The notes under the pieces were generated by a model, which was not told the DNA's origin, searched no databases, and saw only the letters and a list, made by a program, of their open reading frames with translations. Positions 1 through 54,896 of a DNA stretch of 54,896 nucleotides are shown here, one piece after another; within the stretch, counting starts at the first letter, position 1, and every line of letters starts with the position of its first letter. The stretch is taken from positions 1 through 54,896 of the IMG/VR virus record IMGVR_UViG_3300045538_000396, one strand, 5' to 3'. A program made the position numbers and the translations under genes. This DNA is from a virus.

Positions 1-283
1 GAATTATAACTGGTATCCCAACCGTACTTTAAATACAAAGTTGCACTAGAGTAGGCTTGAGAAGCAAATTGTATATAACCAAACTGGTTAACACTTATAT
101 TGTAAGCCGTGGGCAAAGGTTTACCATAGGTGCTTGTATCATCGTAACTGCCATCGGTAGTGTTCCCCGAATTCGTCCAAGTAAGGTTTGCATCGGTTGT
201 AAATGTATTAGGTCTTACATTAACTTGTGCTTGCCATACAGTTGACCAAGCACCATTAACTCTGGCTTTTACCGCTGTGCAAT
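1..283. repeat. Left copy of the terminal overlap
   Basis: These bases match 54614-54896 with no indels and seven mismatches, all between 127 and 177. The simplest reading is that the contig is circular, or circularly permuted, and was cut inside a tail gene. The mismatches show that the two copies come from different molecules or variants, or that a real second copy exists. Confidence 0.9.
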
Positions 284-362
284 TGGTCCAAACGCCTCCC
301 ACCCTAACTTTAGGCTGAGTGACATTGACCCAATTCCCACCGACACGAACCTTGTAAGCCAT
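1..362 (-). CDS. Putative tail fibre/adhesin protein, 5' part (runs off the left edge)
   Basis: The ATG is at 362-360 and the frame stays open to base 1. The same frame continues from 54613 down to the stop at 54286, giving a 229-residue protein if the ends are joined. Residues 3-44 hold three short repeats of the type KVRVGGxW (near residues 4, 18 and 32), a pattern seen in phage tail-tip proteins. The rest is rich in Ser, Thr, Tyr and Asn, as expected for a beta-structured adhesin. Residues 63-79 cover the stretch that differs between the two terminal copies: Thr63, Asn64, Thr69 and Tyr79 here versus Trp, Asp, Val and Ser in the right copy. The downstream neighbour begins three bases after the gene's start codon on the upstream side. 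Adhesin function is inferred from composition and position. Confidence 0.75.
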   Translation of the reverse strand, partial: MAYKVRVGGNWVNVTQPKVRVGGVWTNCTAVKARVNGAWSTVWQAQVNVRPNTFTTDANLTWTNSGNTTDGSYDDTSTYGKPLPTAYNISVNQFGYIQFASQAYSSATLYLKYGWDTSYN

Positions 363-365
363 TCA

Positions 366-713
366 TTATTCCACTGGAGGTGCTAAAGGTGTTGGTGTAG
401 CCCAAGGAAGAGGCAAAGAAACGACAGGCGGGTTCTTTTGGTCTTCAATTTGTCTATCGAGGGTGGCTTTTATTTCGTCCACATTAATTTTTTCAGCAAC
501 CCAACCCCACACTTGTTGAAAGGTCAAATCTTCATAAGCAGTGAAGGGGTCACCTTCAGCCCAAGTTACAGCACAAGAGCCAAAAGCGGTTGCATGGTAA
601 GTGTCTTCCGAAGCATTCATACGCCAATAAATAGTGAAGACCACATCGGACTTCGATTCAAAAGTTGGATAACAATCCATTCTTTCAACGGTATCAACAT
701 AAACTTTAGACAT
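366..713 (-). CDS. Small conserved phage protein next to tail-fibre genes
   Basis: This 115-residue protein begins MSKVYVDTVERMDCYP and has a mixed alpha/beta core with a short WGWVAEKI helix motif near residue 70. The C-terminal tail is proline-rich (PPVV...PLPW..PTPLAPP). It overlaps the end of the upstream 52-codon gene by eight bases, so the two are probably translationally coupled. Proteins of this general type lie beside tail-fibre genes in marine podoviruses and cyanophages, to my knowledge without assigned function. A role in tail-fibre assembly or host interaction is only suggested by location. Confidence 0.75.
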   Translation of the reverse strand: MSKVYVDTVERMDCYPTFESKSDVVFTIYWRMNASEDTYHATAFGSCAVTWAEGDPFTAYEDLTFQQVWGWVAEKINVDEIKATLDRQIEDQKNPPVVSLPLPWATPTPLAPPVE

Positions 714-884: not shown

Positions 885-3161
885 TTAGTATTGTAGCCAC
901 ACATCGCCATTATTAATAGTCCCACCAGGCTCGCCTGATTGAACAAAAGTTTTAGGGACTCGATGTCCCCCATAATGCGTAAGGTCAGTGGTAGCGTTTA
1001 TATGGCGAAGCATAGTCAAGTCACCTGACATATTAACTTGTAAGACATTTGCAGGTGCAGACCAACCGCCAAGCCTCAGAACATTATCAGGGTCTAGGCC
1101 AAAATTGACAGCGTATTGTGCTGAACGATGGAACGACATTGCGGCTGTTCCTCCGTCACTAGAATAGACTTGCAGTTGCATATTGTTGGTATTAGCAAGG
1201 TATACATTATTACCTTTATTACTTCTAAAATACATAATTCCATCGACTGTATCGCCATTCCTAGCAATTGCATAAGATGTGTAATTGGAGGAATCTAAAA
1301 CTGTTGCTTCCGTTCCTGCTCCATTAGCCCCTTTATTACAATATATGGTTCCTGCATTCCAACGCATTTGCCAACCGTGTGAATTATTGTGGAAACCTGA
1401 AGTTCCCCCATTTTGGGCAATCATTAAAGAGACATTACCATTTGCACTCGTTTCAAACTCTAGTCCGCACCACCCATTTCTACTTCCTAAAACTTTCCAC
1501 GAACCATAGGAAGATGAATTAGGTAAAAAGTGAGCACCATTATTAGGTGAGTAAAGACCCGTAAAGTTACTAAACTGTATCCACTCATTTGAATGTATGC
1601 GGTCTGTAGCCCTAACTGTTCCTGTAACATCTAAGGTATATTGCGGATTCGTATTGGCTATTCCGACCCTACCATTATGACGAATGACCATTCTTGTTCC
1701 AAAAGTATCAACACTATTGGAAGTATCAAAATTGATACCCATTCCATCGCCATAGTCCAACATTTGCAATCTGCCACCCCAAATAGATGGATAACCACCA
1801 TGCCTAAATAAAATTTCGGGTGAACCGCCATAAAATAATCTTAACTGCCCTGTTAGTGTTCCACCTGTAATTGGTAGAGCATAAGATGAATAGTTTGAAG
1901 TAGTCAAAAACTCTACCCAAGATTGCCAAGTGCTGTCGTTTCTTCTTCTTAAAAAAGCCCTATCCGATTCATAAGGAAATGCTAATTGGGTTCTTCTTCC
2001 GTAATTATCACCAATGTTTATAGTTCTGATATTAGGCGAGGAAATAGGTGGAGTTCCCGTAGGAACGGGGTCAAAAGTCTTAAATGATTGCCCCCAATCT
2101 GAATCAATGTTTGAACTTGTTGTGGGATTTGCTACAACTGCATAAGATGAGTAATTACCAGCGTGTAAGACTTGATTACCCGCTTGTGTGATTGCACCTG
2201 TAGAGTTGATTGTTCCCGATACGCTTAATCCTGTAAGCGTTCCAACACTCGTAAGCGATGAAGCGGTAACATTACTTGCTAAGGTTGAACCTGTAATTCC
2301 TGAAGCGGGAACAGAACCTGCAGAACCTGTCGTATTTTGATTAAGCGTTCCAATCGAACCGCCCAAGGTTAAACTACCCGAACCTGTAACTGTCCCTGTT
2401 AGCGTTATACCGCTTACATTACCTGTGCCCGCAACGGAAGTAACTGTTCCACTATTGGCTGTTGCTCCTGCGGTAATACCATCAAGTTTTGTGGCATAAG
2501 TTCCTGTCATATAACCATTAACACCCGAAGACGCAGCAGGCATACTTATTGCGGGCGTAGCACCACCACTTGAAACAACAGGTGATGTTCCCGTAACAGA
2601 AGTGACTGTGCCTGAGCCTTTGTTGTTAAAAGTCGTCCAATCGGTAGAGGATAAATATCCATTAGCCGAAGCCGTTGCAACAGGGATTCCAATGGAGACG
2701 GCAGCCGAACCATTGTAAGAAGTTCCGCTTAAAGGCGATGTGATGGTAAGGGTATTAGCAACAGACCCTGCCGAGCCTGTGGTGTTTTGATTAAGCGTAG
2801 GGAAGGTGCAATTTGTTAAAGTTCCTGAAGCCGGAGTTCCAAGAGCGGGAGTCGTTAGTGTAGGTGAAGTAAGAGTTTTATTCGTTAGTGTTTGTGTGCC
2901 TGTTAAAGTTGCGACAGTAGAATCAATTGTTATTGTTCCGCTAGTGGTAATCGGATTAGCACCCCCAGAAACACTTAAACCCGTTCCTGCAGTAATCGAA
3001 GTTACCGAACCACTACCTGCAGTGGCTGCAGTCCACTCTACTCCGGTACCGGTAGATGAAATAACTTGGCCACTAGTTCCTGTAGAGCCGTTAATTTTAA
3101 TTGGACCAGCGGTAATCTCTAGACCATTTTTAACTCTAAACTCTTTAGGATTAGTAGCCAC
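885..3161 (-). CDS. Tail fibre protein with Gly/Ser/Thr-rich shaft and knob-like region
   Basis: The 758-residue protein has a low-complexity shaft over about residues 20-340, rich in the TGTxTLTNKTL, SGT and GTVTSV motifs common in phage tail fibres. Residues 350-425 resemble a pyocin-knob-type module (DWGQSFKTFDPVPTG... TWQSWVEF). A section near 490-520 (HNGRVGIANTNPQYTLDVTG) is typical of trimeric fibre repeats. The C-terminal 200 residues are aromatic and Gly-rich and probably form the receptor-contacting tip. No S74 auto-cleavage domain is visible here. A near-perfect SD is not obvious, but the ATG follows the neighbour closely. It is one of several fibre genes in this block, so division of labour among them is unknown. 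Confidence 0.88.
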   Translation of the reverse strand: MATNPKEFRVKNGLEITAGPIKINGSTGTSGQVISSTGTGVEWTAATAGSGSVTSITAGTGLSVSGGANPITTSGTITIDSTVATLTGTQTLTNKTLTSPTLTTPALGTPASGTLTNCTFPTLNQNTTGSAGSVANTLTITSPLSGTSYNGSAAVSIGIPVATASANGYLSSTDWTTFNNKGSGTVTSVTGTSPVVSSGGATPAISMPAASSGVNGYMTGTYATKLDGITAGATANSGTVTSVAGTGNVSGITLTGTVTGSGSLTLGGSIGTLNQNTTGSAGSVPASGITGSTLASNVTASSLTSVGTLTGLSVSGTINSTGAITQAGNQVLHAGNYSSYAVVANPTTSSNIDSDWGQSFKTFDPVPTGTPPISSPNIRTINIGDNYGRRTQLAFPYESDRAFLRRRNDSTWQSWVEFLTTSNYSSYALPITGGTLTGQLRLFYGGSPEILFRHGGYPSIWGGRLQMLDYGDGMGINFDTSNSVDTFGTRMVIRHNGRVGIANTNPQYTLDVTGTVRATDRIHSNEWIQFSNFTGLYSPNNGAHFLPNSSSYGSWKVLGSRNGWCGLEFETSANGNVSLMIAQNGGTSGFHNNSHGWQMRWNAGTIYCNKGANGAGTEATVLDSSNYTSYAIARNGDTVDGIMYFRSNKGNNVYLANTNNMQLQVYSSDGGTAAMSFHRSAQYAVNFGLDPDNVLRLGGWSAPANVLQVNMSGDLTMLRHINATTDLTHYGGHRVPKTFVQSGEPGGTINNGDVWLQY

Positions 3162-3190
3162 AGTTCACTCTCCCCATGGATTATTTTTTA

Positions 3191-4876
3191 TTAAGCAGTT
3201 GTTAACGAAAGACTTGTTCTCGTAAATACAACATTGTAAGAGTAACCAGCACCATTTACTCCGATAGCGGTAAGTGTAGTTAAGCCACTATTGGCATTAA
3301 CACTTGCTGCAAAAGTTATAAAAGATTGGCTTTCACCCATTTCAATGTAGTTGAGGTCATAAACGGTAGGCTTACCAGTTACGCTCATCAATAATTTAAC
3401 AACAGCACGTGCCTCAGCACCACCAGAATTTGTTAGTTGATAGACAGCAATTAGATACTCAGCCGCACCACCCGTAAAAGTATCAATCGTAGTGACTGCA
3501 CCGGTACTGTTATTTACAGAAAGTGATTTAGAAACTTTAGTTTCTTCAGCAGTAACTAATTCACCCGTTGATGGTTTGAACTTTAAACGACTATCCGTAG
3601 TTTTAACGGCTTGATTGCCACTGGAAGTACCAACCCAAGTTGGGTAAACATAAGAAGAAGTCGTTGTGTCATTTGTAATAGCAACATTAGTAGCATTAGT
3701 TGCAGTCGTTGCAGTCGTAGCCGTAGAAGCATTACCAGTTAAATCACCGGTAATCGTACCAGCCGTAAAGTTTCCAGATGCATCACGTGCAACAATAGCC
3801 GAAGCAGTGTTCGCAGAAGTTGCAGTTGTTGCAGAATTTGAAACTTTGCCTGCAGTAGAAATAGTATTTAATTTAGTATCGGCAATAGAACCTGCCAACA
3901 TAGTGTTCGTAACTGTAGCCGTGTCCGTGGTATAGATACCATTTGTAACACTAGAAGCATTACCGGCTAATGAAGCCGTAATAGTTCCAGCAGCAAAGTT
4001 ACCCGAACCATCTCTCGCAACAATCGCTGATGCCGTATTTGCAGAATCAGCAGTCGTAGCAGAGTTAGAAACTTTTCCAGAAGTAGAAATAGTTGCCAAC
4101 TTGGTGTCTACAATAGCGGCAGATGCATTAATGTCAGCATCAACGATGGTTCCATCAGCAATCATCGTGCTGGTAACAGTTCCCGTATCACCCGTTGTAA
4201 CAACCGTACCCGTAGTTGCAGGTAAGGTAATGGTGTTAGTACCAGAAGTTGCGGCAGGGCTAAGAGTAATGGTTCCGGAAGTAGAGCCATTCAATAAAAT
4301 ATTTTTTCCTGAAGAAACGGAAACGTGTTCGGAAGAGGTCCAAGCATTTGTTGCACTTACCCAGTTAAAAGTTTTGTCCGTTGTGCCCTTAAGAGTAAGT
4401 CCACCACCATCTGCCGTTGTGTTGGTAGGAGTAGTAGCATCACCTAAGATAATGTTTTTGTCTTCAATAACTAAATTAGTTGAATTCAAATTTGTAGTAG
4501 TACCATTAACCGTAAGATTTCCGCTAATATTTAAATCGGTTAAAGAAACCGTAGAGGGAAGCGTTAAAGTAACTGTACCGGATTGTGCACTGTTGAAAGT
4601 TCCGTTAGCAAGAATTTGTTCTGAGGTACCCGTAACTGAGGTTGTTGCAGGAAGTGATACCCACGTACTATCTCCACGAAGAAAAGTAGAACTAGTTGCA
4701 CTACCACTTGCCAAACGAGCAGTTGATACAGTTCCTGTTGCTAAATTACTTGCGTTAGTTGAATAGGCTTTGGTTGCAACATCCTGTTCACTAGTAGGGT
4801 CAGCAACATTACTGATTGCCGAGTTGTTGGCATCAAACCCGTATTTTCCAAAAAGTTTTTTATTAGTAACAGCCAT
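3191..4876 (-). CDS. Tail fibre protein with two 76-residue internal repeats
   Basis: This 561-residue protein starts MAVTNKKLFGKYGFDANN, an N-terminal pattern seen in marine phage fibres that attach to the tail. The middle is almost entirely Ala/Thr/Ser/Asn/Gly. A repeat of about 76 residues (GKVSNSATT... SANTASAIVARD) occurs twice, near residues 265-345 and 341-420, so the shaft can be lengthened by unit duplication. The C-terminal 110 residues are more complex and predicted beta-rich (VSVTGKPTVYDLNYIEMGES, VNGAGYSYNVVFTRTSL). It is probably a second fibre or fibre base that works with the 758-residue fibre next to it. Confidence 0.85.
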   Translation of the reverse strand: MAVTNKKLFGKYGFDANNSAISNVADPTSEQDVATKAYSTNASNLATGTVSTARLASGSATSSTFLRGDSTWVSLPATTSVTGTSEQILANGTFNSAQSGTVTLTLPSTVSLTDLNISGNLTVNGTTTNLNSTNLVIEDKNIILGDATTPTNTTADGGGLTLKGTTDKTFNWVSATNAWTSSEHVSVSSGKNILLNGSTSGTITLSPAATSGTNTITLPATTGTVVTTGDTGTVTSTMIADGTIVDADINASAAIVDTKLATISTSGKVSNSATTADSANTASAIVARDGSGNFAAGTITASLAGNASSVTNGIYTTDTATVTNTMLAGSIADTKLNTISTAGKVSNSATTATSANTASAIVARDASGNFTAGTITGDLTGNASTATTATTATNATNVAITNDTTTSSYVYPTWVGTSSGNQAVKTTDSRLKFKPSTGELVTAEETKVSKSLSVNNSTGAVTTIDTFTGGAAEYLIAVYQLTNSGGAEARAVVKLLMSVTGKPTVYDLNYIEMGESQSFITFAASVNANSGLTTLTAIGVNGAGYSYNVVFTRTSLSLTTA

Positions 4877-27948: not shown

Positions 27949-28968
27949 ATGGCAAAAGAAAAAGGAATGAGTCAGAAAGAAATGTATGAAAGTATTACTA
28001 ATAAAATCATTGAAGCCATTGAATCAGACAATGGAACTGAGTGGGTAAAACCTTGGAGAAACTTAATGTCTAACGAGGTTAGGTCTATTGACAATCGTCA
28101 GTATCACGGAGTCAATCAGATGATTCTTAATGCTCATCAGTATTATTTGCCCAATAAAGATAGATGCCACAGTAAAGTATGGGGAACCTATAAAGCCTTT
28201 AAGCGACACGGCTTTCGGATTGGCTCAGAACAATACAAAAAACATGCAGATATATATTACTTTAAGATGCTCAAAGTTAAGAACAAAGAGAAGTCTAAAG
28301 AAAAGAATAAGGATGTATACGATAAGATTCCAATGATGAGATTCTATAGGGTTTATAACGGTGGACAATGTGAGAATTGGGTTGAGCCAAAAAGGGAAGA
28401 AGTATTAGTTGCCTGGAGTGATGACCAACATTGCACACCAATAGAGAATAGAATTGCTGAACTTAATCCTAAGATTGTATTCGGAGAAAACCAAGCATAC
28501 TACTCACCTATTACTGACCATATTGGTATGCCTCATAAAGAACAGTTTGATACACCGGTTAATTACTACGCCACTTTATTACATGAGTTAACCCATTGGA
28601 CTAAACCCAAGCATAGGGCAGATAGAAGGCAAGACCTTGCGGACAAGAGTATGTCTGAGTTCAGAAATTCTTATGCGTTTGAAGAATTGGTTGCAGAGTT
28701 AGGGGCTACCTTCTTGTCATCACATTACAACCTGTCGAACGATACGGCTATGAGAGAGTGTCATATCCCTTACCTTGCGTCTTGGTTAGAAGGAATTAAA
28801 GAAGACTCTAAAGCCATATTTAAGGCATCCTCACTAGCACAAAAGTCTTCTAACTTTATCTTGGGTATCGTCCCTGAATGGGAGAAACAAGAGAGTGATG
28901 AAGATACTACTGGTAAAAATGAAACGACAGGTCTCGACTCTGAACTTGTCTGTCAATTAACTAACTAA
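27949..28968 (+). CDS. ArdC-like antirestriction/zincin metallopeptidase protein
   Basis: The 339-residue protein has the two-part layout of ArdC. The N-terminal ssDNA-binding domain covers residues 8-115 (YESITNKIIEAIESDNGTEWVKPW, YHGVNQMIL, KVWGTYKAFKRHGFRIG). A zincin domain has HELTH at residues 212-216 and a downstream EELVAELGA with Glu246 or Glu250 as the third metal ligand. In plasmids ArdC protects incoming ssDNA from restriction; here it may protect phage DNA or process host proteins. The ATG follows GGAGAGCCTT, close to the cassette junction. It is the largest gene in the accessory part of this operon. Confidence 0.88.
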   Translation: MAKEKGMSQKEMYESITNKIIEAIESDNGTEWVKPWRNLMSNEVRSIDNRQYHGVNQMILNAHQYYLPNKDRCHSKVWGTYKAFKRHGFRIGSEQYKKHADIYYFKMLKVKNKEKSKEKNKDVYDKIPMMRFYRVYNGGQCENWVEPKREEVLVAWSDDQHCTPIENRIAELNPKIVFGENQAYYSPITDHIGMPHKEQFDTPVNYYATLLHELTHWTKPKHRADRRQDLADKSMSEFRNSYAFEELVAELGATFLSSHYNLSNDTAMRECHIPYLASWLEGIKEDSKAIFKASSLAQKSSNFILGIVPEWEKQESDEDTTGKNETTGLDSELVCQLTN

Positions 28969-38173: not shown

Positions 38174-38624
38174 TTGCCACCCTAAACAAAGAACCATCTT
38201 TCGTTTTATTTCCGTACAGTACCGAACGCCTAGGAGTCTCGCCATCTTTAGCAATAGCAATATGAATCCATGTAGAGCCACTAGAACTTGACTCTAGGAT
38301 AAGTTGGTCGAACTGCAGGTCGCTGTCTCTAAGAGCGTCAAAAACAGTATGAGGAAATTTGCCATGTACATTGAAGTCACATGCCCTGCAGTCTTTGTGG
38401 GCAGAATTTTTACTGCCACCGACCAATTTATTTAATTCTTCATTGCGATAAAAAGACATTATTCTAATGGGTAGATTAAAAATACTTCTTACTTCCTCTA
38501 AAAAGTTGCACATTCTCAAAAGATTTGATTTAAGATTTTCTGGAATAGTATTATTAATATTTTTATTTTTAGCGGTATCCGAATGTTCAGCCTCTGCTAA
38601 GGTAAAGTGCTCTGTAATTTTCAT
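38166..38624 (-). CDS. Endolysin, M15-family peptidase
   Basis: The 152-residue protein has the M15 (VanY/D,D-carboxypeptidase-like) zinc site: SxHxxxxAxD at residues 74-83 (His76, Asp83) and WIH at 119-121 (His121). A SFYRN element lies at 57-61. It cuts peptide cross-links of peptidoglycan. No signal peptide, so release needs the holin encoded nearby. Its ATG overlaps the stop of the 3114-residue gene (ATGA). Length agrees with the family. Confidence 0.9.
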   Translation of the reverse strand: MKITEHFTLAEAEHSDTAKNKNINNTIPENLKSNLLRMCNFLEEVRSIFNLPIRIMSFYRNEELNKLVGGSKNSAHKDCRACDFNVHGKFPHTVFDALRDSDLQFDQLILESSSSGSTWIHIAIAKDGETPRRSVLYGNKTKDGSLFRVANG

Positions 38625-41600
38625 TTGATAAGTCCATACTTCTTAAAGGCTTTACCTTGTAATTCAATAATTTCATCTTGTTGTCTGTTAAATTTATCGA
38701 GCGTCTCTTTGAATTCAGGAGTATTCATAGTTCCGTTAATTCTAGACCTTCTAACAAATCGGTTTCTTTCCTCAGTAACATTGCTTCTTTTCCTAGATAA
38801 ATTTATAAGTTCTTTATTGTTATATGGCATTCGAGCACTAGCAATAAGTCTCTGAGCAGAAACTTTATCTCCGGCATCTTCAAACTTCTTAATAATTGCG
38901 TCACTTCTTCTCCTCTTCTCGTCAAGTTCATAAATTAACTGAGCATTTCCGCCAGTTTTATCTGCCGTTCCAAAGGGCAATGGCGAAATGAGAGGATTAG
39001 ATGTAGGTTTATATACTGTTTCATCTCCTATTTCAGATAAAGATTTAACAAGTTGAACTGATTGTGTAACTGCACCAGTTGCGTAAACCTTAAATAAATA
39101 CTCAAAATCTTGGGGACTAAAATCAAGTTTTCCGTTTGTTACTTCATACAAACCTCGTGCAATATTATCAGCAACAGGGTTGGTACCCGCACGTGCAAGC
39201 ATCCATTGAGGAATAAGGCCCTGTGGGTCTTCACTTTTTATTTTAGAACCCGTCCAAGACTCGTTCGTAGTAGTAGCCACAAATGGTTTTAAGAGCGTGG
39301 GGGATAGATTCTGTATGACTCCTTCTGCACCTCCACCACTACCCGTGAATGAGAAAGAATTTAAAATATCTTTAGTAGCAGTTAAAGCATCCATATCGCC
39401 ATTAGATAACTTACTTAAATTTCTTCCAAGTTGAAATAACATACCAAGACCACGGATTCTGATTTTAATATATGAACCATCAGAAGCAGGCAAAACCATG
39501 TATTGTCTTTTAATGTAATCAGGAATTGCTGAAGAGTCTAAACCATCCATTTCGTCATACATAGATTGTTGTACCATTCCTGCAAGAAGTGCACTACCAA
39601 TTAGTCCCAGGCCTTTTTTCCCGGTAAGACTCTTAAACACACGCGATTGGCCTGCAATATTGGCCGTTGTGTAAGAATAAAATCCGTTTATTTTTCTAGT
39701 AATCAAACCTTTTCTGTCAAAATTTGCTGTTATATCCTTACCCAACAAAGTGGCTTGGTCTAAGGACATCCCTGATTTTCTACCTTCTTTGTAAGAGGCA
39801 AATCGTATAGAGTTCTCAAGAGAGTTCATTTCAATACTGACAAGATTACCAATACCTTCCAAAATCTGTCTACCGCCCTGATAACCCGCGCCTTTCCTTA
39901 ATTTAGCAGATAGATTATCTGTAATTTCACTGATAACAAGATTATTGTCCTCAACGAAGTTATGAGAACCCCCCTTAAGGTAGTACTCATTGTATTCACT
40001 TAATAGTTGGTCTTTCTTAATTGCATCATCAAAAGCCGCTCGATTACCGTCTTCTCTTAACTTCTTCATTAATAAGTTATGTTTTCCAACAGTTTTAATT
40101 GCTGAAGGTATTTGTTGCGTAATTGCCCATCTTTTACCTGCTATGGGAGTATTGGTTATATTAGTTAGCATATCAAAATAATCTGCTGTAAAATTTTTAA
40201 ATGCAAAAAATGGATTATAGCCCGTGTTCAAGGCGTTCCAGTTTTTAAGAATTTTAAAGTAAGCCTTACCAACAACACCCGTTGGCATCCAACCGCTATC
40301 CAAAGAACCATTATAAAGTTTTGCCATGTGCATGGCTATTTCATTAGTAGTATCAAACGCAAGATAAATTTTCTTGGACACACCTTGGCTATCAAATATT
40401 TGTAATGGAACTATGTTATCAGCAGGAGGTGGGACAGAAATTTCTTTAACAGTTAGTTGCCCATTTTTATCTACGTATGTCTTTTTAATGATTTTACTAG
40501 AAAACCCTTCAGATAATTGTTTTGCATCACTGTAGTTCATTCCACCTTCAACCAAAGCGTTAACAGTACTCATGGTTTCGGGGTCAACAATGGCAACAAA
40601 ATTCTTTTCAAATATATTGTTTTTAAGACCTAACTTTACAAAATTATATAAGGAATTTTGTGCGGGCGCAAAAGCAACAGCCCTTGCTCTTTTCTTTAAC
40701 ATCTGCAAGGAGTGTTGTAAAACTTCTCCTCTAGGTTTTTCACTATTTCCAATTCTGTATTTTAATGCAATATCAAGACCTGCAAATCCCATTGCGCCTC
40801 TTTCGTTATAAACGTTATACTTGGTAAAGTTCGGTGAGTTTAAAGAATCTTCATAAGCATAAAGAGGAGCGTAAGTTTTATATTTTGTTGTTAACGATGT
40901 GTAAGTTTCCATGGGTAGTATCCCAGCCGTAACGAGTTCTTTTAATGAACTATTTAATAAGTTGGTAAGATTCTCATGGGCTAAAGTAAATACCTGATTT
41001 AGTCTTGGTTCTCTTCTAGCCATATCTGCCAACAATTTATCTGCCTCTACCTTGGACCGAGGTGGCGTAAGTTGTCCAATCATTTTAGGTTCTTTTTCAA
41101 CCCACTCTTGGTAAGCAACATTTAAGTCTTCGGCAGACCTTAACTCTACAAATAAATCAAAATCAACCATAAAGTCTCCAGCAGCCGTTTTTTTACTTAT
41201 ATTAGGTCTTGTTTTCACGTATTGACTAAAAGCCACTTGCAACGGCTTCATAATTTGTCCATCAAAAATTGCTTGAGAAAGATTTATGTTTGCATTTTTC
41301 TTCTGATTTGCCAAAGATAGTTGCAGGAAAGCATTAAAATTGTCTGGAAGGGATTCACCTAGTTTAGTTTCAAGTTTAGAAACTAATTTCTGTAATGGTG
41401 AGTCATCACTAATCCAATGATTTTTAAATTTTTCCCATAGTGTAAATTTTTCTTTGTTATCACTTGCTTCGTCAAGCATTTTTCTTCGTTTTTTAGAAGT
41501 AGCAAAGAAGTCAGAACCACCACTGTCGTCTATTTCATCAGGTGGTTTAGGGGGTTCGGGAGGTACGGGAGGAGTATTTCTACTTTCTTGTCGACTACTA

Positions 41601-44600
41601 CTTTCTTGTCGACTACCGGCAGTTGGGGTAGCATAATTGTTATCTTTAGAAGTTAATCTTGCAATTGGTTCTTCTGCTGAAGACATAGATACATTAACCG
41701 GCTCTCCATTATTAAATACCTGAGCAGTTTGATTGGTAATAATTGGAGGCACTTCTTTTGTAGACACTTCTTCTGAACCCTCCCAAGGGTCATCTAGGTC
41801 ATACCAGTCATCTGGGGGTTGTGGTCCGTCTTGTAGACGTTGCTCTGCCGCTGCTTCTTCATCGTAAGATTCTTGGGTTCTCGGAGCGGGTTCTTCCCAC
41901 TCCAAATCTCTTGGGTCTTGTTGTGGGTCTTCTAAGTGTTGTCTATCGTTAGCGTAGTATTCTCTTTCATTCTTCATCGCTTGTAATTCCTGAAATTCCG
42001 CAACTTCTTCAGCCGTGGCTTCTCTAGAATTAAGCCATAAATCATCTGAAACTTCTTCTGCACCAAGTTGTTGATTCTTTTTGGCTTGATTAGCGGTAAC
42101 GGCAGTAGGGTCAGTAAGCATTGAAGATGGAGGTAAAGACCCGGACTGCGCATTAGGTTTAGAGACGTTACCAGTAGTTTCGGGCTTACCGCGAAGCGTG
42201 CTTGACTGTTGTAAATTAAATTGGTTAGCACGCGTAATGGCTGAAGCAGACACACGAGCACTCTCATTATCTGGTACTTTCATATTCATAATGGTTGAGT
42301 TTGAATCTGTTCTTAGTAAACCATCTCGTACTCCTTGCAAAATTCTTTTTTGTTCACTTAAAATACTAGAAATATTTAAAATATCATCAGCAGCATATGC
42401 ATTGTCACCCAAACCAGCATCGGCTAAGGTTGTTTTTCCATCTAATCCAATAGCAGGCTTGTTAGAAGTGCCTTCAACAAGTTTGTAAGTAACTAATTCA
42501 TACTTATCTTTAAATTTACCATTCTCATCAAAATAAAGTTGTTTTATCATGTTATCTTTGGGGCTTTTAGAAATTTTTTCTAAGTCGAAACCGGTACGTT
42601 CAAACTTGAGCCTAGAAGAAATTTCTTTATCAGTAACAACATCTAGATTGAGGTCTGGCAATTTTTCAATTCCGGTAACAACATATTTTCGTGTACCTAC
42701 TTTAAACACATCGCCCGCTTTATTTAACTTACGCCCATTACTTGGTTGTATAAGAGCCGTTTTTAGATAGGTATTTACACCATTAACGTCTACAACCGTT
42801 GATGATAATGCATCAAACCCAAAAGACTTTGCGTTTGGAAAAGTATTATTAATTATGTTAAGTGTGAGATTGCCAACGAGTCTGTTCTTGTTGGGCTCTA
42901 TATTTAGTTCAATAATTTTTTCTTTTTTATCCGAAAAAGAATCATAAAGTTTATTTAAGTCATCTCTTGATGTCATTGTATCCGTAAACTTCATTGTATC
43001 TCTTACTAAAACTTCATACACAGCAAGTTGGTTTTGAATTTCTTCTATTTTTGATTTTGTTGCTGCTAAAATTTTATAGTTTGCATCTAACGCTGAGTCA
43101 GAATTTCCTTCATTGGGGTCTAAAAGTGATTCAAAATTTCGATTTTCGTTTTTAATTTTACCTAAAAGTTCATCGCCAAAAGACATCCCACTTTCACTAT
43201 TAAAACTACTCTCAGTAAGCAATTTAATTATTGGTTTATTTGCTTCATCGGGATTATCAAACTTATTCCTGAATAAATTTGCTTCTTTCATAAATTCTCT
43301 AAATTGCTTAACAGAAACTTTATCTTTTGTTGTGGGCATTTTTTTAAGTAGTGCCTCAAACATTGAAACAATTCTATTAATTGACTCAATTCTAGCATTT
43401 GTAAATGAAATTTCGTAATCACTAGGTGCTGCATCTTTAATGACTTTTTCTTCGATTAATTTTGCTCGGCCTTCTTTTGTCAATCTAAATTTTGCCTTGT
43501 TTATAGTGTTTTTAAGAAATGATATATCCGTTTCAAGTAAGGGTCGTATCTCATTTACAATACGTGATGCGTCAACTTCAGCGGCAAATTGTGATTCTTT
43601 TTTAAACTCTATAGTATCCAACTGTTTTAATTTTATTGATTTTTGTTCGTTTTCTTTAAAGATTTTTGCAAATGATTCTGCTTTTCCAAGACGAGACCAA
43701 ACATTAGATGCTGAATCTAATGTCATAAATCTATTGCTAACATTTTTAGTTAAAGTATCATTTAAAATTTTCTCTTGTTTATCTTTCTTTTTTTGATATA
43801 TATCTTTTAACTTATTATTTAAATCCTCCACGCTCCAAATATATTCTAAGCCATCGTCTTTATATGTCAGTTCTTCACCCTTGTCTATTAAGAGGTCAAG
43901 TGTTTGCTCTTGAGTTTCAAAGCCTCTTACTTTGGCTTCTTCGACCCATCGTGAGTCGGCTCCTGTTGAACCACCGCTTCTTAAAATAAGTCCTTCAACG
44001 TTTCCTTTTCTTGCTTTTTCAATCCTTTTTATTGTATTATCAATGGCATTCTTACCCCTAAAACTTAAGTCTCTGTTACCAATACCAGCATACACATTAT
44101 GTTCTGCATTGATTGGAGGCTCTCCCTTCATCGGAGAAAAGTATCCATTTTTTTGACTTTCATACCATTGCTCATCAAAAAAGTAAACCTTTTTGCCAAA
44201 AGCAAGAGCAAATTTAACACCATATTCTGTTCCACTAGGTTTTACTAAGTATTGCTCATTATTTACTCTTTGTAACTTACCAACAGCAAAAACAACATCC
44301 GCCTCATGAACAATATAATAATTTCTTCTTACTAATGCTTCTTTAAATCTAGTTTTGCGTCTTTGAAAACCGTCGGGAGGTTTTTCAATATTTTTTATAA
44401 GAGAGTCAAAATAATTTATTCTATTAACGCTATCTTCAAGTCTTATTAAATTAGAATCAATTAATGGGTTTTTACTTAATTTAACTGCTTTAATCCCACT
44501 ATAATCCAAGCCCCTAAGATAATATAAACTATCTTGGTTATACTCTCGAATTAGAATTGTGCGTCCTAAAAGGTTACTTTCTATCTCTTCTAAAGTGTAT

Positions 44601-47600
44601 AAATCTCTAGGGAGAAGTTCTCGAACTAAACCCGTAATAGTTACTTCACCATCTTGATTAGGTTCCGATACCCTCACATCTTTGTCTTTACCCAAAGTTA
44701 CTAAATAACCTGGATTTGCTGCCTTGTCATAGGCATTTCCTTCGTAACGTCTTGTTTCAACTATATACTCATCACCTTTTTTTAAATTCCACAAATCTTG
44801 TGTTGTGTTAATAACATCTTGTTCCACAGTATTGTTTTTTTCAAGTGCTTCAATTGTAAATTCTTCTGCATATCTTTCTACGGGTATTCTTTGTACAGGT
44901 TTTTGTTCTTCTATAATTTTGTTTATACTATTTGCATTAGATTTTAATTCTTTCCGCGCTTTTGCTACAGTGTCATGCTTAAAATCAACTAATTTATTGC
45001 CTTCCCTACCATAAACGCCCCATCGGTATACAAGATTTTGAGGCTTAACAAACTTGCCAGTCAGCCCTCTTTTTATATGTTCTTGTCTAGTAAGAGGCCC
45101 TTTGTAAACTTTTAATGTTTCAGACTTAGATTTATTTAATTTGTAGGCCAATTTAACAAAAGTAAAATCATGACGATTAACGGAGCCAACATCATCCTTT
45201 AACCATGTGCTGGGACTTGAATCAAGGTCGTTATAATTTGTTTTTAATACTTCTTTTGCTAAACGCAAATTGTTTACAAATTTTTCTTGTTCAACCTTTT
45301 TTTGTTTGAGGAGTTTGATTTCTTCTTTGGGTGTTCTAGGTGCGTCTCCTGTTTCATTTGTGGCTTGCTCTTCGGGGGCTTTTTCTTCGGCCCCAGTTTT
45401 ATAGGTAGTTTCTGCGTTTTCAATACTTACGATTTTAAATTCCTTTTGTTTACCAAAATCTGGGTTCACATCATAAGGACCTACCCTCGTATAAGTCTTT
45501 GGATTATAACTACCTGCCGCATCTCCCAAAATAGTTGCTTCAGTTTTACGGATATTATTAAAAATAAATTTTGTGAACTCTTGTAAATTACTAATCTGTT
45601 TTAATTTATCTACTACTTCAGTAAAATCAGTAATATTATTTGGTTGTTCAAAATCTTTTTTAAGGTCATCATATAATTTTTTTATTTCATTTACAGTATT
45701 TTCTACTTCGTAAGATTTAGCAGGGTCGCTCTTACCAAGAAGTTTGTAGACTTCAGAAATCTTATTATAAATATTCTTATTAAGTTCATCCTTTTTCATT
45801 ATTTCTTTATCTAAAACATCAATGTTTTCTAAAAGTCTTTTATAATCTAATGGTAATTGTTCGGACAGTGGAACTGTACCATCTCCCTTTGAAGATTCCA
45901 TCCATTGTTTAAGTAAAGATAAATCAGAATATGCTTGTTGAAATTGAATTAAAATCTGTTGTCCATGTACTGTTGGCGAAAAGTCTTCTCCAAATATAGC
46001 GCGCAAAGCAGTTTCGTTGTTTGTTAAAAAAGAATAGTGTAGGCTTTTGTGCGCTTCTAGTGAGCGTATAGCGCGATTTATTTTATTTACTTCAATATTA
46101 ATAACTGCATTAATTTTCTCATCAGATTTATTTGCAGGATTTTTGATAATTTTTTCTAATTGAATATTTCTAATGGCTTTTAACTCATCAAGTTCATTAT
46201 TAAATTTGTCTTGTTTAGTTTTGTCAGGTAAGTTTTCAATAAATTCGGTTGGAATAACTCTTCCGTCGTCTGTTTTTACTACGCTTCCACCATCCTCATT
46301 AAGAAATTTAGTACTGGGGATAATGTTTGTAGTTTCAGTCGTACCATCTGGTAATCGAATTACAACTTTAGTAGGTGTATTATTATTCTTGTCGTCAAAA
46401 CTATCAACATAAACCCTTTCTAAAGAATTAATATCAGTAATAAGTGGTAATTGTTCGGTTTCATCTTTAATTGGTGCTTCTTCATCTTTAGGTTTTAGTG
46501 TTGGGGCTTCTTCAGTGGCAACTTCAGGTAGAGGTTCTGCTGCACCAGTTGGTGGTGGAGATGGCTTTTTGCCAGGTCCATTGGGGTCATACTGCTCGGG
46601 GCCTATAACTGGGGGAAGTACCGGGCCCTGTACCGGTGGTTCCTCGCTACCCTTAACAAGTTGTTTCTCTATATTTTTTCTTGCCCGGTCCATCTCGGCG
46701 ATAGGACCAAATTTTCGATATGGAAGAGTCATGGTATGAAATAGTGCACCAATAGAAAAACTTTCTAACGCACCCTCATTGGTCTTTCTTAATAAATAAT
46801 CAAAGTAAGTTTCACCCTGTCTAGGTTCATCAAGTTTTAACTTGTTATCAAGCATCGCTTGAACGGGCATCATTAAAACATTCACGCCACCCATTGTTGC
46901 GGCTTCACCCATAAATCTAAGAAAAGATGGGTTTAATTGACCAAAAGCGGGAAGGTATACAAAAGCAGCAGTAGGTAACGAAGAAACAAAAGATTTATAA
47001 TATGCTTCATCTGTATTCATACCAGAGTTAATAAGGTTTTGCCTAGATTGTCCCATAGCACCAACAGCAAAATTAAAAGCAATTGGAGTTTGAGCCCCAA
47101 GTCTTTGCATTAACATCATGCTTTTAGAAGCCTCTTTTGCAGTATTGATACTTGCAATAGTTTTTGATGGGTTAATTCCACTACTCAATAGAGAAGTTGT
47201 TCTTGCAAGAACACCATTCGCAGTATAACCTGCTGCATTTTCAGCAATTGTTGCACCAACAACATTTGTCTTAACTAATTTTGAACCCAAACTTATACTC
47301 TTACCAAGCAATCCGGCAACTCTGGCAATTGGAATAAACGAAGGAGCCATATGCGCGGCTGTATGCAAACCCCAAGTTAAAAATGAACCAACACCTGTAA
47401 CATCGTCAAATTTGTTTGTGTCACCCTTATCTCTTTGCACATAGTTAGACATATAACCAGACATTAAGGACGTTTCTGTACCCCATTTAGTTAAAATATT
47501 TTCGCTAGTATTTCTGGTAACTAAATCAAAAGCACCGCCAAAGAATTGAGCCGTACCTCCAGCCAAAGAGTCTAAACCAGACTGCAGGCTTCTTGTAATA

Positions 47601-47965
47601 GGTGTATCAATAAGATTAGTTAGACCCCTGGTCTCTAGATTTTTTTTCGTAGACTTTACTATTTCTTCTGTGTACAGTCTTCTATTTTTGTTTTCCACTT
47701 CCTCTAAATTAATTTTATTTACTTCATCCTCTGGAATAAATGACCACCAATAATTTGTATTGGGTAATAATCTGGATTCATAATTATCACCGCTTTTCCC
47801 AATGAAATTTAGTCTGTTGCGTGCAAGGTCGTCCCTCGTTGGATTAGATAAAGGTTCAAAAGTAGGATTTGGTTTTTTAATAGAGTTCTCTTCGGAACCA
47901 GAAACTTCCGTGGTTTCATTAATGCTATCTAGATTTGATTCTTCTTCTGACCCGCTATAAATCAC
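38621..47965 (-). CDS. 3114-residue large polyvalent virion protein with SLOG-like and LPD38-like parts
   Basis: The start is GTG at 47965, overlapping the previous stop by one base (TAGTG) and following GAGGAA. Residues 190-305 are hydrophobic and Gly/Ala-rich. Pro/Glu-rich linkers lie near residues 440-510 and 2115-2150. A SLOG-like Rossmann segment covers about 1210-1360, with ADVVFAVGKL and SGTEYGVKFALAFGKKVYFFD before YAGIGNRD and RSGGSTGADSRW. The last 600 residues (WNALNTGYNPFFAFKNF onward, with FDRKG and IRGLGMLFQLG) resemble the LPD38 region of large polyvalent proteins. Its position between the lytic virion protein and the endolysin suggests a protein ejected into the host with DNA. 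SLOG domains bind nucleotides, so it could sense or consume host signals. Function unproven. Confidence 0.85.
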   Translation of the reverse strand: MIYSGSEEESNLDSINETTEVSGSEENSIKKPNPTFEPLSNPTRDDLARNRLNFIGKSGDNYESRLLPNTNYWWSFIPEDEVNKINLEEVENKNRRLYTEEIVKSTKKNLETRGLTNLIDTPITRSLQSGLDSLAGGTAQFFGGAFDLVTRNTSENILTKWGTETSLMSGYMSNYVQRDKGDTNKFDDVTGVGSFLTWGLHTAAHMAPSFIPIARVAGLLGKSISLGSKLVKTNVVGATIAENAAGYTANGVLARTTSLLSSGINPSKTIASINTAKEASKSMMLMQRLGAQTPIAFNFAVGAMGQSRQNLINSGMNTDEAYYKSFVSSLPTAAFVYLPAFGQLNPSFLRFMGEAATMGGVNVLMMPVQAMLDNKLKLDEPRQGETYFDYLLRKTNEGALESFSIGALFHTMTLPYRKFGPIAEMDRARKNIEKQLVKGSEEPPVQGPVLPPVIGPEQYDPNGPGKKPSPPPTGAAEPLPEVATEEAPTLKPKDEEAPIKDETEQLPLITDINSLERVYVDSFDDKNNNTPTKVVIRLPDGTTETTNIIPSTKFLNEDGGSVVKTDDGRVIPTEFIENLPDKTKQDKFNNELDELKAIRNIQLEKIIKNPANKSDEKINAVINIEVNKINRAIRSLEAHKSLHYSFLTNNETALRAIFGEDFSPTVHGQQILIQFQQAYSDLSLLKQWMESSKGDGTVPLSEQLPLDYKRLLENIDVLDKEIMKKDELNKNIYNKISEVYKLLGKSDPAKSYEVENTVNEIKKLYDDLKKDFEQPNNITDFTEVVDKLKQISNLQEFTKFIFNNIRKTEATILGDAAGSYNPKTYTRVGPYDVNPDFGKQKEFKIVSIENAETTYKTGAEEKAPEEQATNETGDAPRTPKEEIKLLKQKKVEQEKFVNNLRLAKEVLKTNYNDLDSSPSTWLKDDVGSVNRHDFTFVKLAYKLNKSKSETLKVYKGPLTRQEHIKRGLTGKFVKPQNLVYRWGVYGREGNKLVDFKHDTVAKARKELKSNANSINKIIEEQKPVQRIPVERYAEEFTIEALEKNNTVEQDVINTTQDLWNLKKGDEYIVETRRYEGNAYDKAANPGYLVTLGKDKDVRVSEPNQDGEVTITGLVRELLPRDLYTLEEIESNLLGRTILIREYNQDSLYYLRGLDYSGIKAVKLSKNPLIDSNLIRLEDSVNRINYFDSLIKNIEKPPDGFQRRKTRFKEALVRRNYYIVHEADVVFAVGKLQRVNNEQYLVKPSGTEYGVKFALAFGKKVYFFDEQWYESQKNGYFSPMKGEPPINAEHNVYAGIGNRDLSFRGKNAIDNTIKRIEKARKGNVEGLILRSGGSTGADSRWVEEAKVRGFETQEQTLDLLIDKGEELTYKDDGLEYIWSVEDLNNKLKDIYQKKKDKQEKILNDTLTKNVSNRFMTLDSASNVWSRLGKAESFAKIFKENEQKSIKLKQLDTIEFKKESQFAAEVDASRIVNEIRPLLETDISFLKNTINKAKFRLTKEGRAKLIEEKVIKDAAPSDYEISFTNARIESINRIVSMFEALLKKMPTTKDKVSVKQFREFMKEANLFRNKFDNPDEANKPIIKLLTESSFNSESGMSFGDELLGKIKNENRNFESLLDPNEGNSDSALDANYKILAATKSKIEEIQNQLAVYEVLVRDTMKFTDTMTSRDDLNKLYDSFSDKKEKIIELNIEPNKNRLVGNLTLNIINNTFPNAKSFGFDALSSTVVDVNGVNTYLKTALIQPSNGRKLNKAGDVFKVGTRKYVVTGIEKLPDLNLDVVTDKEISSRLKFERTGFDLEKISKSPKDNMIKQLYFDENGKFKDKYELVTYKLVEGTSNKPAIGLDGKTTLADAGLGDNAYAADDILNISSILSEQKRILQGVRDGLLRTDSNSTIMNMKVPDNESARVSASAITRANQFNLQQSSTLRGKPETTGNVSKPNAQSGSLPPSSMLTDPTAVTANQAKKNQQLGAEEVSDDLWLNSREATAEEVAEFQELQAMKNEREYYANDRQHLEDPQQDPRDLEWEEPAPRTQESYDEEAAAEQRLQDGPQPPDDWYDLDDPWEGSEEVSTKEVPPIITNQTAQVFNNGEPVNVSMSSAEEPIARLTSKDNNYATPTAGSRQESSSRQESRNTPPVPPEPPKPPDEIDDSGGSDFFATSKKRRKMLDEASDNKEKFTLWEKFKNHWISDDSPLQKLVSKLETKLGESLPDNFNAFLQLSLANQKKNANINLSQAIFDGQIMKPLQVAFSQYVKTRPNISKKTAAGDFMVDFDLFVELRSAEDLNVAYQEWVEKEPKMIGQLTPPRSKVEADKLLADMARREPRLNQVFTLAHENLTNLLNSSLKELVTAGILPMETYTSLTTKYKTYAPLYAYEDSLNSPNFTKYNVYNERGAMGFAGLDIALKYRIGNSEKPRGEVLQHSLQMLKKRARAVAFAPAQNSLYNFVKLGLKNNIFEKNFVAIVDPETMSTVNALVEGGMNYSDAKQLSEGFSSKIIKKTYVDKNGQLTVKEISVPPPADNIVPLQIFDSQGVSKKIYLAFDTTNEIAMHMAKLYNGSLDSGWMPTGVVGKAYFKILKNWNALNTGYNPFFAFKNFTADYFDMLTNITNTPIAGKRWAITQQIPSAIKTVGKHNLLMKKLREDGNRAAFDDAIKKDQLLSEYNEYYLKGGSHNFVEDNNLVISEITDNLSAKLRKGAGYQGGRQILEGIGNLVSIEMNSLENSIRFASYKEGRKSGMSLDQATLLGKDITANFDRKGLITRKINGFYSYTTANIAGQSRVFKSLTGKKGLGLIGSALLAGMVQQSMYDEMDGLDSSAIPDYIKRQYMVLPASDGSYIKIRIRGLGMLFQLGRNLSKLSNGDMDALTATKDILNSFSFTGSGGGAEGVIQNLSPTLLKPFVATTTNESWTGSKIKSEDPQGLIPQWMLARAGTNPVADNIARGLYEVTNGKLDFSPQDFEYLFKVYATGAVTQSVQLVKSLSEIGDETVYKPTSNPLISPLPFGTADKTGGNAQLIYELDEKRRRSDAIIKKFEDAGDKVSAQRLIASARMPYNNKELINLSRKRSNVTEERNRFVRRSRINGTMNTPEFKETLDKFNRQQDEIIELQGKAFKKYGLIK

Positions 47966-53166: not shown

Positions 53167-54039
53167 CTATTGAGTGGCTGTTACCCTTAGCGTGAAAGTC
53201 GTTGTTTCTGTGATTTGAGTTGTAACAGCAACACCGCTAGTACAAGCAATGCTTGTTGCACCACCCGTGAACGTACCTTTGCTTCTAGTTATTGAACCAG
53301 AGCCATTACTAAATGTTGGTGTTATCTGAAAACTGGCACCTGAGTCAACAGTCTGACTAGAAGATGTAAATCCAGAAATAGTTGGATTTAAAGCAGAGGC
53401 TGTAACTGTTGCGGTTCTTTGGTCACCATAACCTGCTTCATTTTTAACTTCTAGGGTATAAACGGTTTCAACGATAGGTTTTGCAACCGTATAAGTTGTA
53501 CCACTTACAACATTATTTATTGTAGTTGTTCCATAAACAATTTTAGCAATGGTACCTGAACTTGGAGTGTACGTTGGAACAAGTAGTACATTATTGCCAG
53601 ATACAGTAGCCGTAAAAGCAGATATCTGCGGCAATGTTAAAACACTTATTTCTTTTGTCATTTGGTCAGAATTTGGAGACGCAATAGCACTATTAACTGC
53701 AGTTATTGTATAGGTTAAAGTACCCGTTGCTGTAGGAGTAATGGCAGCACTTTGAACGCCATTAGCAACACTTAATCCTGGAGCAGAAATACCGCTTCCG
53801 GTAATAAGACACGATGTATAATCATTAAAAATATCTACAGTAAACTTTACAAATCCACCAATAGTAAGTTGATTTTTATCTGCAGTAACACTCAAAATAA
53901 CAGGTGCTGGGGTTACTCCCGTTGGACCTCCACCTCCACCTCCACCTCCACCTCCATCTTCAACTGGAGAAATAATTATTTTGGCTTTAGCCTCGGCAGG
54001 GTCAAGGAAATACTTACTAAATAACTCTTTACGTGCCAT
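53167..54039 (-). CDS. Ig-like tail protein with poly-Gly linker
   Basis: The 290-residue product starts MARKELFSKYFLDPAEAKAK, a short probable attachment helix, followed by ten Gly (residues 29-38, encoded by a CCACCT microsatellite) and Pro/Thr. Three to four Ig-like beta modules follow: VTADKNQLTIGGFVKFTVDIF (50-70), LTYTITAVNSA, GTTYTVAKPIVETVYTLEVKN (175-200) and TFSNGSGSI..TTTFTLRVTATQ at the end. Ig-like domains decorate many phage tails and capsids and bind surfaces weakly. The ATG follows GGAGAATAGAT. It is probably a decoration or adhesin in the fibre block. Confidence 0.8.
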   Translation of the reverse strand: MARKELFSKYFLDPAEAKAKIIISPVEDGGGGGGGGGGPTGVTPAPVILSVTADKNQLTIGGFVKFTVDIFNDYTSCLITGSGISAPGLSVANGVQSAAITPTATGTLTYTITAVNSAIASPNSDQMTKEISVLTLPQISAFTATVSGNNVLLVPTYTPSSGTIAKIVYGTTTINNVVSGTTYTVAKPIVETVYTLEVKNEAGYGDQRTATVTASALNPTISGFTSSSQTVDSGASFQITPTFSNGSGSITRSKGTFTGGATSIACTSGVAVTTQITETTTFTLRVTATQ

Positions 54040-54285: not shown

Positions 54286-54896
54286 TTAAGGTGTGTAAAT
54301 AATATAACAGTCGTAGATTTTGAACCCAATGTCGCTTTCGTAAGTTATAGTTCCATATTGGATACAGGATGCCCCCCATTCTTCCATTTGATAAGCAACA
54401 CAGGTGTTATAGTCCGTCTCCGTAATGCGTGCTTTTCTGTACCCAACCTTAACCTTTATATAATTAAGATTGTTATTGGCCCCTAAACTAAATGTCGCTG
54501 TTTGTACAGACGAACTGCTTGCATCAGAGAAACTTTTTGTTGCAATCGTTGAAAGATTGGCACTATTACTTGTTTGCATAATACTGAGCGTTGTGGAAGC
54601 ATCGCCTGTAGCAGAATTATAACTGGTATCCCAACCGTACTTTAAATACAAAGTTGCACTAGAGTAGGCTTGAGAAGCAAATTGTATATAACCAAACTGG
54701 TTAACACTTATATTGTAAGCCGTGGGCAAAGGTTTACCAGAGGTGCTTGTATCATCGTAACTGCCATCGACAGTGTTACCCGAATCCCACCAAGTAAGGT
54801 TTGCATCGGTTGTAAATGTATTAGGTCTTACATTAACTTGTGCTTGCCATACAGTTGACCAAGCACCATTAACTCTGGCTTTTACCGCTGTGCAAT
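54286..54896 (-). CDS. Putative tail fibre/adhesin protein, 3' part (runs in from the right edge)
   Basis: The frame enters at 54896 and stops at 54286. It is the same gene as that starting at 362, so the full protein has 229 residues. This copy differs at four residues in the stretch corresponding to residues 63-79 (Trp, Asp, Val, Ser). The C-terminal 110 residues (FSLGANNNLNYIKVKVGYRKARITETDYNTC..., ending FKIYDCYIIYTP) are beta-rich with several Cys and Tyr, compatible with a jelly-roll-like tip. A TTG at 54729 is also in frame but is internal. Confidence 0.75.
   Translation of the reverse strand, partial: CTAVKARVNGAWSTVWQAQVNVRPNTFTTDANLTWWDSGNTVDGSYDDTSTSGKPLPTAYNISVNQFGYIQFASQAYSSATLYLKYGWDTSYNSATGDASTTLSIMQTSNSANLSTIATKSFSDASSSSVQTATFSLGANNNLNYIKVKVGYRKARITETDYNTCVAYQMEEWGASCIQYGTITYESDIGFKIYDCYIIYTP
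54614..54896. repeat. Right copy of the terminal overlap
   Basis: It matches bases 1-283 without gaps. All seven differences lie between 54740 and 54790, flanked by 126 and 106 identical bases. Confidence 0.9.

Follow-up and report, generated by a model that had tools for sequence, protein, structure and literature searches.

Clustered mismatches in the end overlap of a metagenomic phage genome, probably two strain alleles of one putative tail protein gene

The two ends of virus record IMGVR_UViG_3300045538_000396, a stretch of 54,896 bases that was analysed whole and is referred to here as the window, are direct copies of the same 283 bases at 97.5% identity, and their seven mismatches are packed into a short patch of a single gene. 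We consider that these mismatches are most probably two strain alleles exposed by metagenome assembly, that is ordinary strain variation, and give this reading, in which we infer both the strain origin and the branch in the assembly graph, a probability of about 0.72.

The end overlap and its clustered differences

The mismatches lie at 127/54740, 157/54770, 158/54771, 165/54778, 173/54786, 175/54788 and 176/54789 (left/right copy) and span 50 bases between exact flanks of 126 and 107 bases. A previous reading of the letters by a model (hereafter the sequence-only reading) had the 126-base flank right and was one base out on the other two dimensions, which it gave as 106 and 51 bases. Its central observation of seven clustered mismatches between the terminal copies is borne out, as the chance of seven random sites in 283 bases falling within such a span is P ~1e-4, and for this reason the cluster needs an explanation. 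The codon changes that it listed are likewise as we find them, being from the left to the right copy T63W (ACG/TGG), N64D (AAT/GAT), T69V (ACC/GTC) and Y79S (TAT/TCT) together with a silent change at G66 (GGG/GGT). All seven changes are in frame and neither copy contains a stop or an indel.

Six of the seven changes are non-synonymous and one is silent, which had been taken as a sign that amino-acid change is favoured within the patch. This does not hold up against a neutral expectation: 72-78% of substitutions in the patch would then change an amino acid, at least six of seven would do so with a probability of 0.39-0.52, and the preponderance of such changes lacks statistical significance. 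The ratio of six to one is compatible with neutral, relaxed or diversifying change. Had the patch come from a relative under strong purifying selection (omega 0.1-0.2), the probability of at least six non-synonymous changes in seven would drop to 0.0005-0.023, which disfavours plain import from a constrained relative.

As its ends overlap, the record as a whole is best read as an essentially complete, circular-mapping and podovirus-like phage genome, and because this 283-base direct overlap is imperfect, its circularity would escape a test for exact end repeats. Pfam and PHROG profiles identified genes for a terminase large subunit, a portal or head-tail adaptor, a major head protein, an internal virion protein and an exonuclease along with tail and tape-measure or lysin-like genes. 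The record also encodes a very large polyvalent protein of the injected or virion type, 3114 residues long (38621-47965, minus strand), in which a large polyvalent protein associated domain 38 (LPD38) lies close to the C-terminus, and an ArdC-type anti-restriction protein with a zincin-like metallopeptidase domain (27949-28968, plus strand).

The gene across the junction and its relatives

The variable gene is on the minus strand. From its start at 362 it extends past the left end of the window, resumes at 54613 and reaches its stop at 54286 (Table 1). Only joining the ends makes it complete, as one 229-residue gene from ATG to stop. Its product is probably a tail (host-contact) protein, a label that we base on the tail and virion genes that surround it and on the way its repeats are arranged, the N-terminal 120 residues comprising three short 'KVRVGGxWxxV'-type repeats followed by a Thr/Ser/Asn-rich domain. 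The affected codons (63, 64, 66, 69 and 79) belong to the first third of the gene, and 150 residues follow the patch.

Table 1 Coordinates of the end overlap, the variable patch and the genes around the junction
Feature	Position	Strand	Remark
Residues 1-120 of the probable tail protein (229 residues)	3..362	-	ORF translation
Residues 28-229 of the 229-residue probable tail protein, to the stop codon	54286..54894	-	ORF translation
DUF7936 gene, upstream neighbour in the tail region	366..713	-	Profile match; led to related loci
End overlap, left copy	1..283	-	Allele 1: Thr63, Asn64, Thr69, Tyr79
End overlap, right copy	54614..54896	-	Allele 2: Trp63, Asp64, Val69, Ser79
Variable patch, allele 1	127..176	-	
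Variable patch, allele 2	54740..54789	-	

Profile searches assigned the 229-residue protein to no Pfam or PHROG family, and no other similar copy of the overlap or of the gene was found across the 54.9 kb of the record. An AlphaFold2 model from the single sequence of residues 28-229 was all-beta with the patch in a strandless stretch, although at a pLDDT of 43 it is too poor to use. In the neighbouring 290-residue protein (53167-54039) a short CCACCT run at 53930-53956 encodes a polyglycine stretch.

No relatives of the variable gene were recovered from IMG/VR with a peptide pattern, from INPHARED with tblastn, or among GTDB genomes or PDB sequences, collections that may omit records very close to the window. 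The conserved 23-base flank had no exact match in IMG/VR and the neighbouring virion protein used as a query found no relatives. The neighbours of DUF7936 genes do reach the tail regions of distant phages. In two of the related records, L003 and L004, genes adjoining the DUF7936 gene (L003 1247-1909 and L004 9062-9838) encode three YNDAGTWR-type repeats and then a domain, a layout that resembles the KVRVGGxW repeats of the window gene with sequence similarity that is not significant. A candidate relative of residues 81-179 at L003 3144-3473 was rejected, this best match being weak and not significant (E=0.16) and gaining no confirmation from phmmer.

Strain alleles and rival explanations

If at least two strains were present in the source metagenome and differed by seven bases within 50 bases of a single probable tail protein gene, the structure of the record would follow from the way in which such mixtures are assembled. 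Assembly has to open a circular genome at some point, and de Bruijn assembly of a mixed population would do so at a graph branch of the kind that strain differences create. With one allele at its start and the other at its end, the contig would then carry the gene in duplicate over 283 bases with clustered mismatches, and the exact flank shared at such a branch would be expected to be about one k-mer long. The 126-base flank equals the k-1 that a node-based de Bruijn graph would give at k = 127, but the shorter 107-base flank does not correspond to such a length. Neither version loses the frame or gains a stop, as expected of real alleles. Viral microdiversity is known to fragment de Bruijn assemblies (PMC11443906). 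Contig ends would on this account be enriched for polymorphic places, so that a cluster found there says little about the patch being exceptional, and the word 'hypervariable' applied by the sequence-only reading exceeds data that consist of two versions only, taken from contig ends ascertained at graph branches.

The same arrangement could be produced by tandem paralogues, two near-identical adjacent gene copies whose shared stretch the assembler did not cross so that each end of the contig lies in a different copy. The start of one copy and the stop of the other would give the same in-frame joining, and L003 does carry two tail-type genes around its DUF7936 gene (1247-1909 and 2418-3560). 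These two neighbours are however not near-identical to each other, a recent duplication is not expected to differ in 50 bases only, and a missing segment that is nowhere seen would be required, and we regard this explanation as unlikely. Error in assembly or consensus at the contig end, with bases drawn from the reads of a related phage or from a chimeric local assembly, would account for variants being seen at contig ends only, and assemblers are known to yield inter-strain chimeric stretches (PMC11443906). Against this the differences are seven substitutions with no indel, frameshift or stop, the 107 bases past the patch agree perfectly to the end, and reads drawn in from elsewhere would themselves point to a true second allele close by, which leaves such error a rather improbable source of the mismatches.

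The sequence-only reading had raised the question as to whether the patch is diversified by a diversity-generating retroelement, in which adenine-directed reverse transcription from a template repeat would be responsible for the changes. Six of the seven sites are first or second codon positions, codons 64 and 69 are derivable from AAY, and all seven sites could be template adenines, although this last is true of any two-allele comparison made without a template. The reverse transcriptase that had been reported as not visible in the window is indeed not detected, with no RVT_1 match in the 54.9-kb record at E up to 10 and none among the ORFs of at least 250 aa that were scanned with profile libraries (Pfam, PHROGs), nor was there an RVT_1 match at E up to 1 in 20 related records reached via the DUF7936 gene, which are distant and include many fragments. 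The template-repeat check proposed by that reading, run on both strands of the record with tolerance at adenines and at lengths of 30, 40, 51 and 60 bases, gave nothing beyond the reversed-sequence control, the best scores at 30-51 bases being equal to those of the control. In phage retroelements an IMH G/C tract and a GC-rich hairpin with a GRNA loop are found, the latter 4-34 bp after the variable repeat (PMC3240598); here no G/C run in the gene reaches 8 bases, and the sequence after the patch forms no GC-rich stem capped by a GRNA loop. The patch moreover sits mid-gene, with its 150 residues still to come, and 13 adenines within it are identical in both versions. Given that reverse transcriptase, template and IMH-type features were not found, that the patch is mid-gene and that these adenines are unchanged, we do not file the locus as a diversity-generating retroelement, an origin that we consider very improbable. 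To an adhesin patch diversified in a targeted way without a phage-encoded reverse transcriptase, whether by a host or satellite retroelement acting in trans or by undescribed local mutagenesis, we would give equally little credence.

What stands of the earlier proposal is a locally variable patch in a probable tail protein or recombination with a relative, which is likely to be its biological content, while the targeted and retroelement-like part is not supported, no reverse transcriptase, template or IMH having been found. The two strain alleles probably came apart through selection on an exposed loop, either relaxed or diversifying, or through recombination of a short tract between closely related phages, in the latter case in a segment that evolves fast locally. 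Neither route would call for a dedicated mutagenesis system. Similarity and template scans of the whole record found no gene-conversion donor within the genome. The same biological pattern is reported for tail proteins of marine phages whose non-synonymous variants cluster in small segments (PMC6832022).

The feature is real but ordinary and offers no evidence for a new diversity generator. It illustrates how the ends of an assembled phage genome may be determined by differences between strains in a host-contact gene, with the effect that automatic classification would not recognise the genome as circular. In the orphan tail protein the patch is a candidate for a loop that affects host range.

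Comparison with known systems

Like retroelements of the BPP-1 type (PMC3240598), the locus has amino-acid-changing differences within a short patch of what is probably a phage tail protein. It differs in that the patch is mid-gene and in that no reverse transcriptase, template repeat, G/C-run feature of the IMH or GRNA hairpin was found. Its likeness to strain bubbles and imperfect end overlaps (PMC11443906) lies in a contig that ends where alleles diverge and in exact shared flanks, although here the k-1 length fits the 126-base flank only. In comparison with the microdiversity described for tail proteins (PMC6832022) there are just two versions, which come from contig ends rather than from read mapping, and the protein has no annotated relative; the two cases are alike in that, within one population, non-synonymous variants of a tail-type protein are packed into a small segment.
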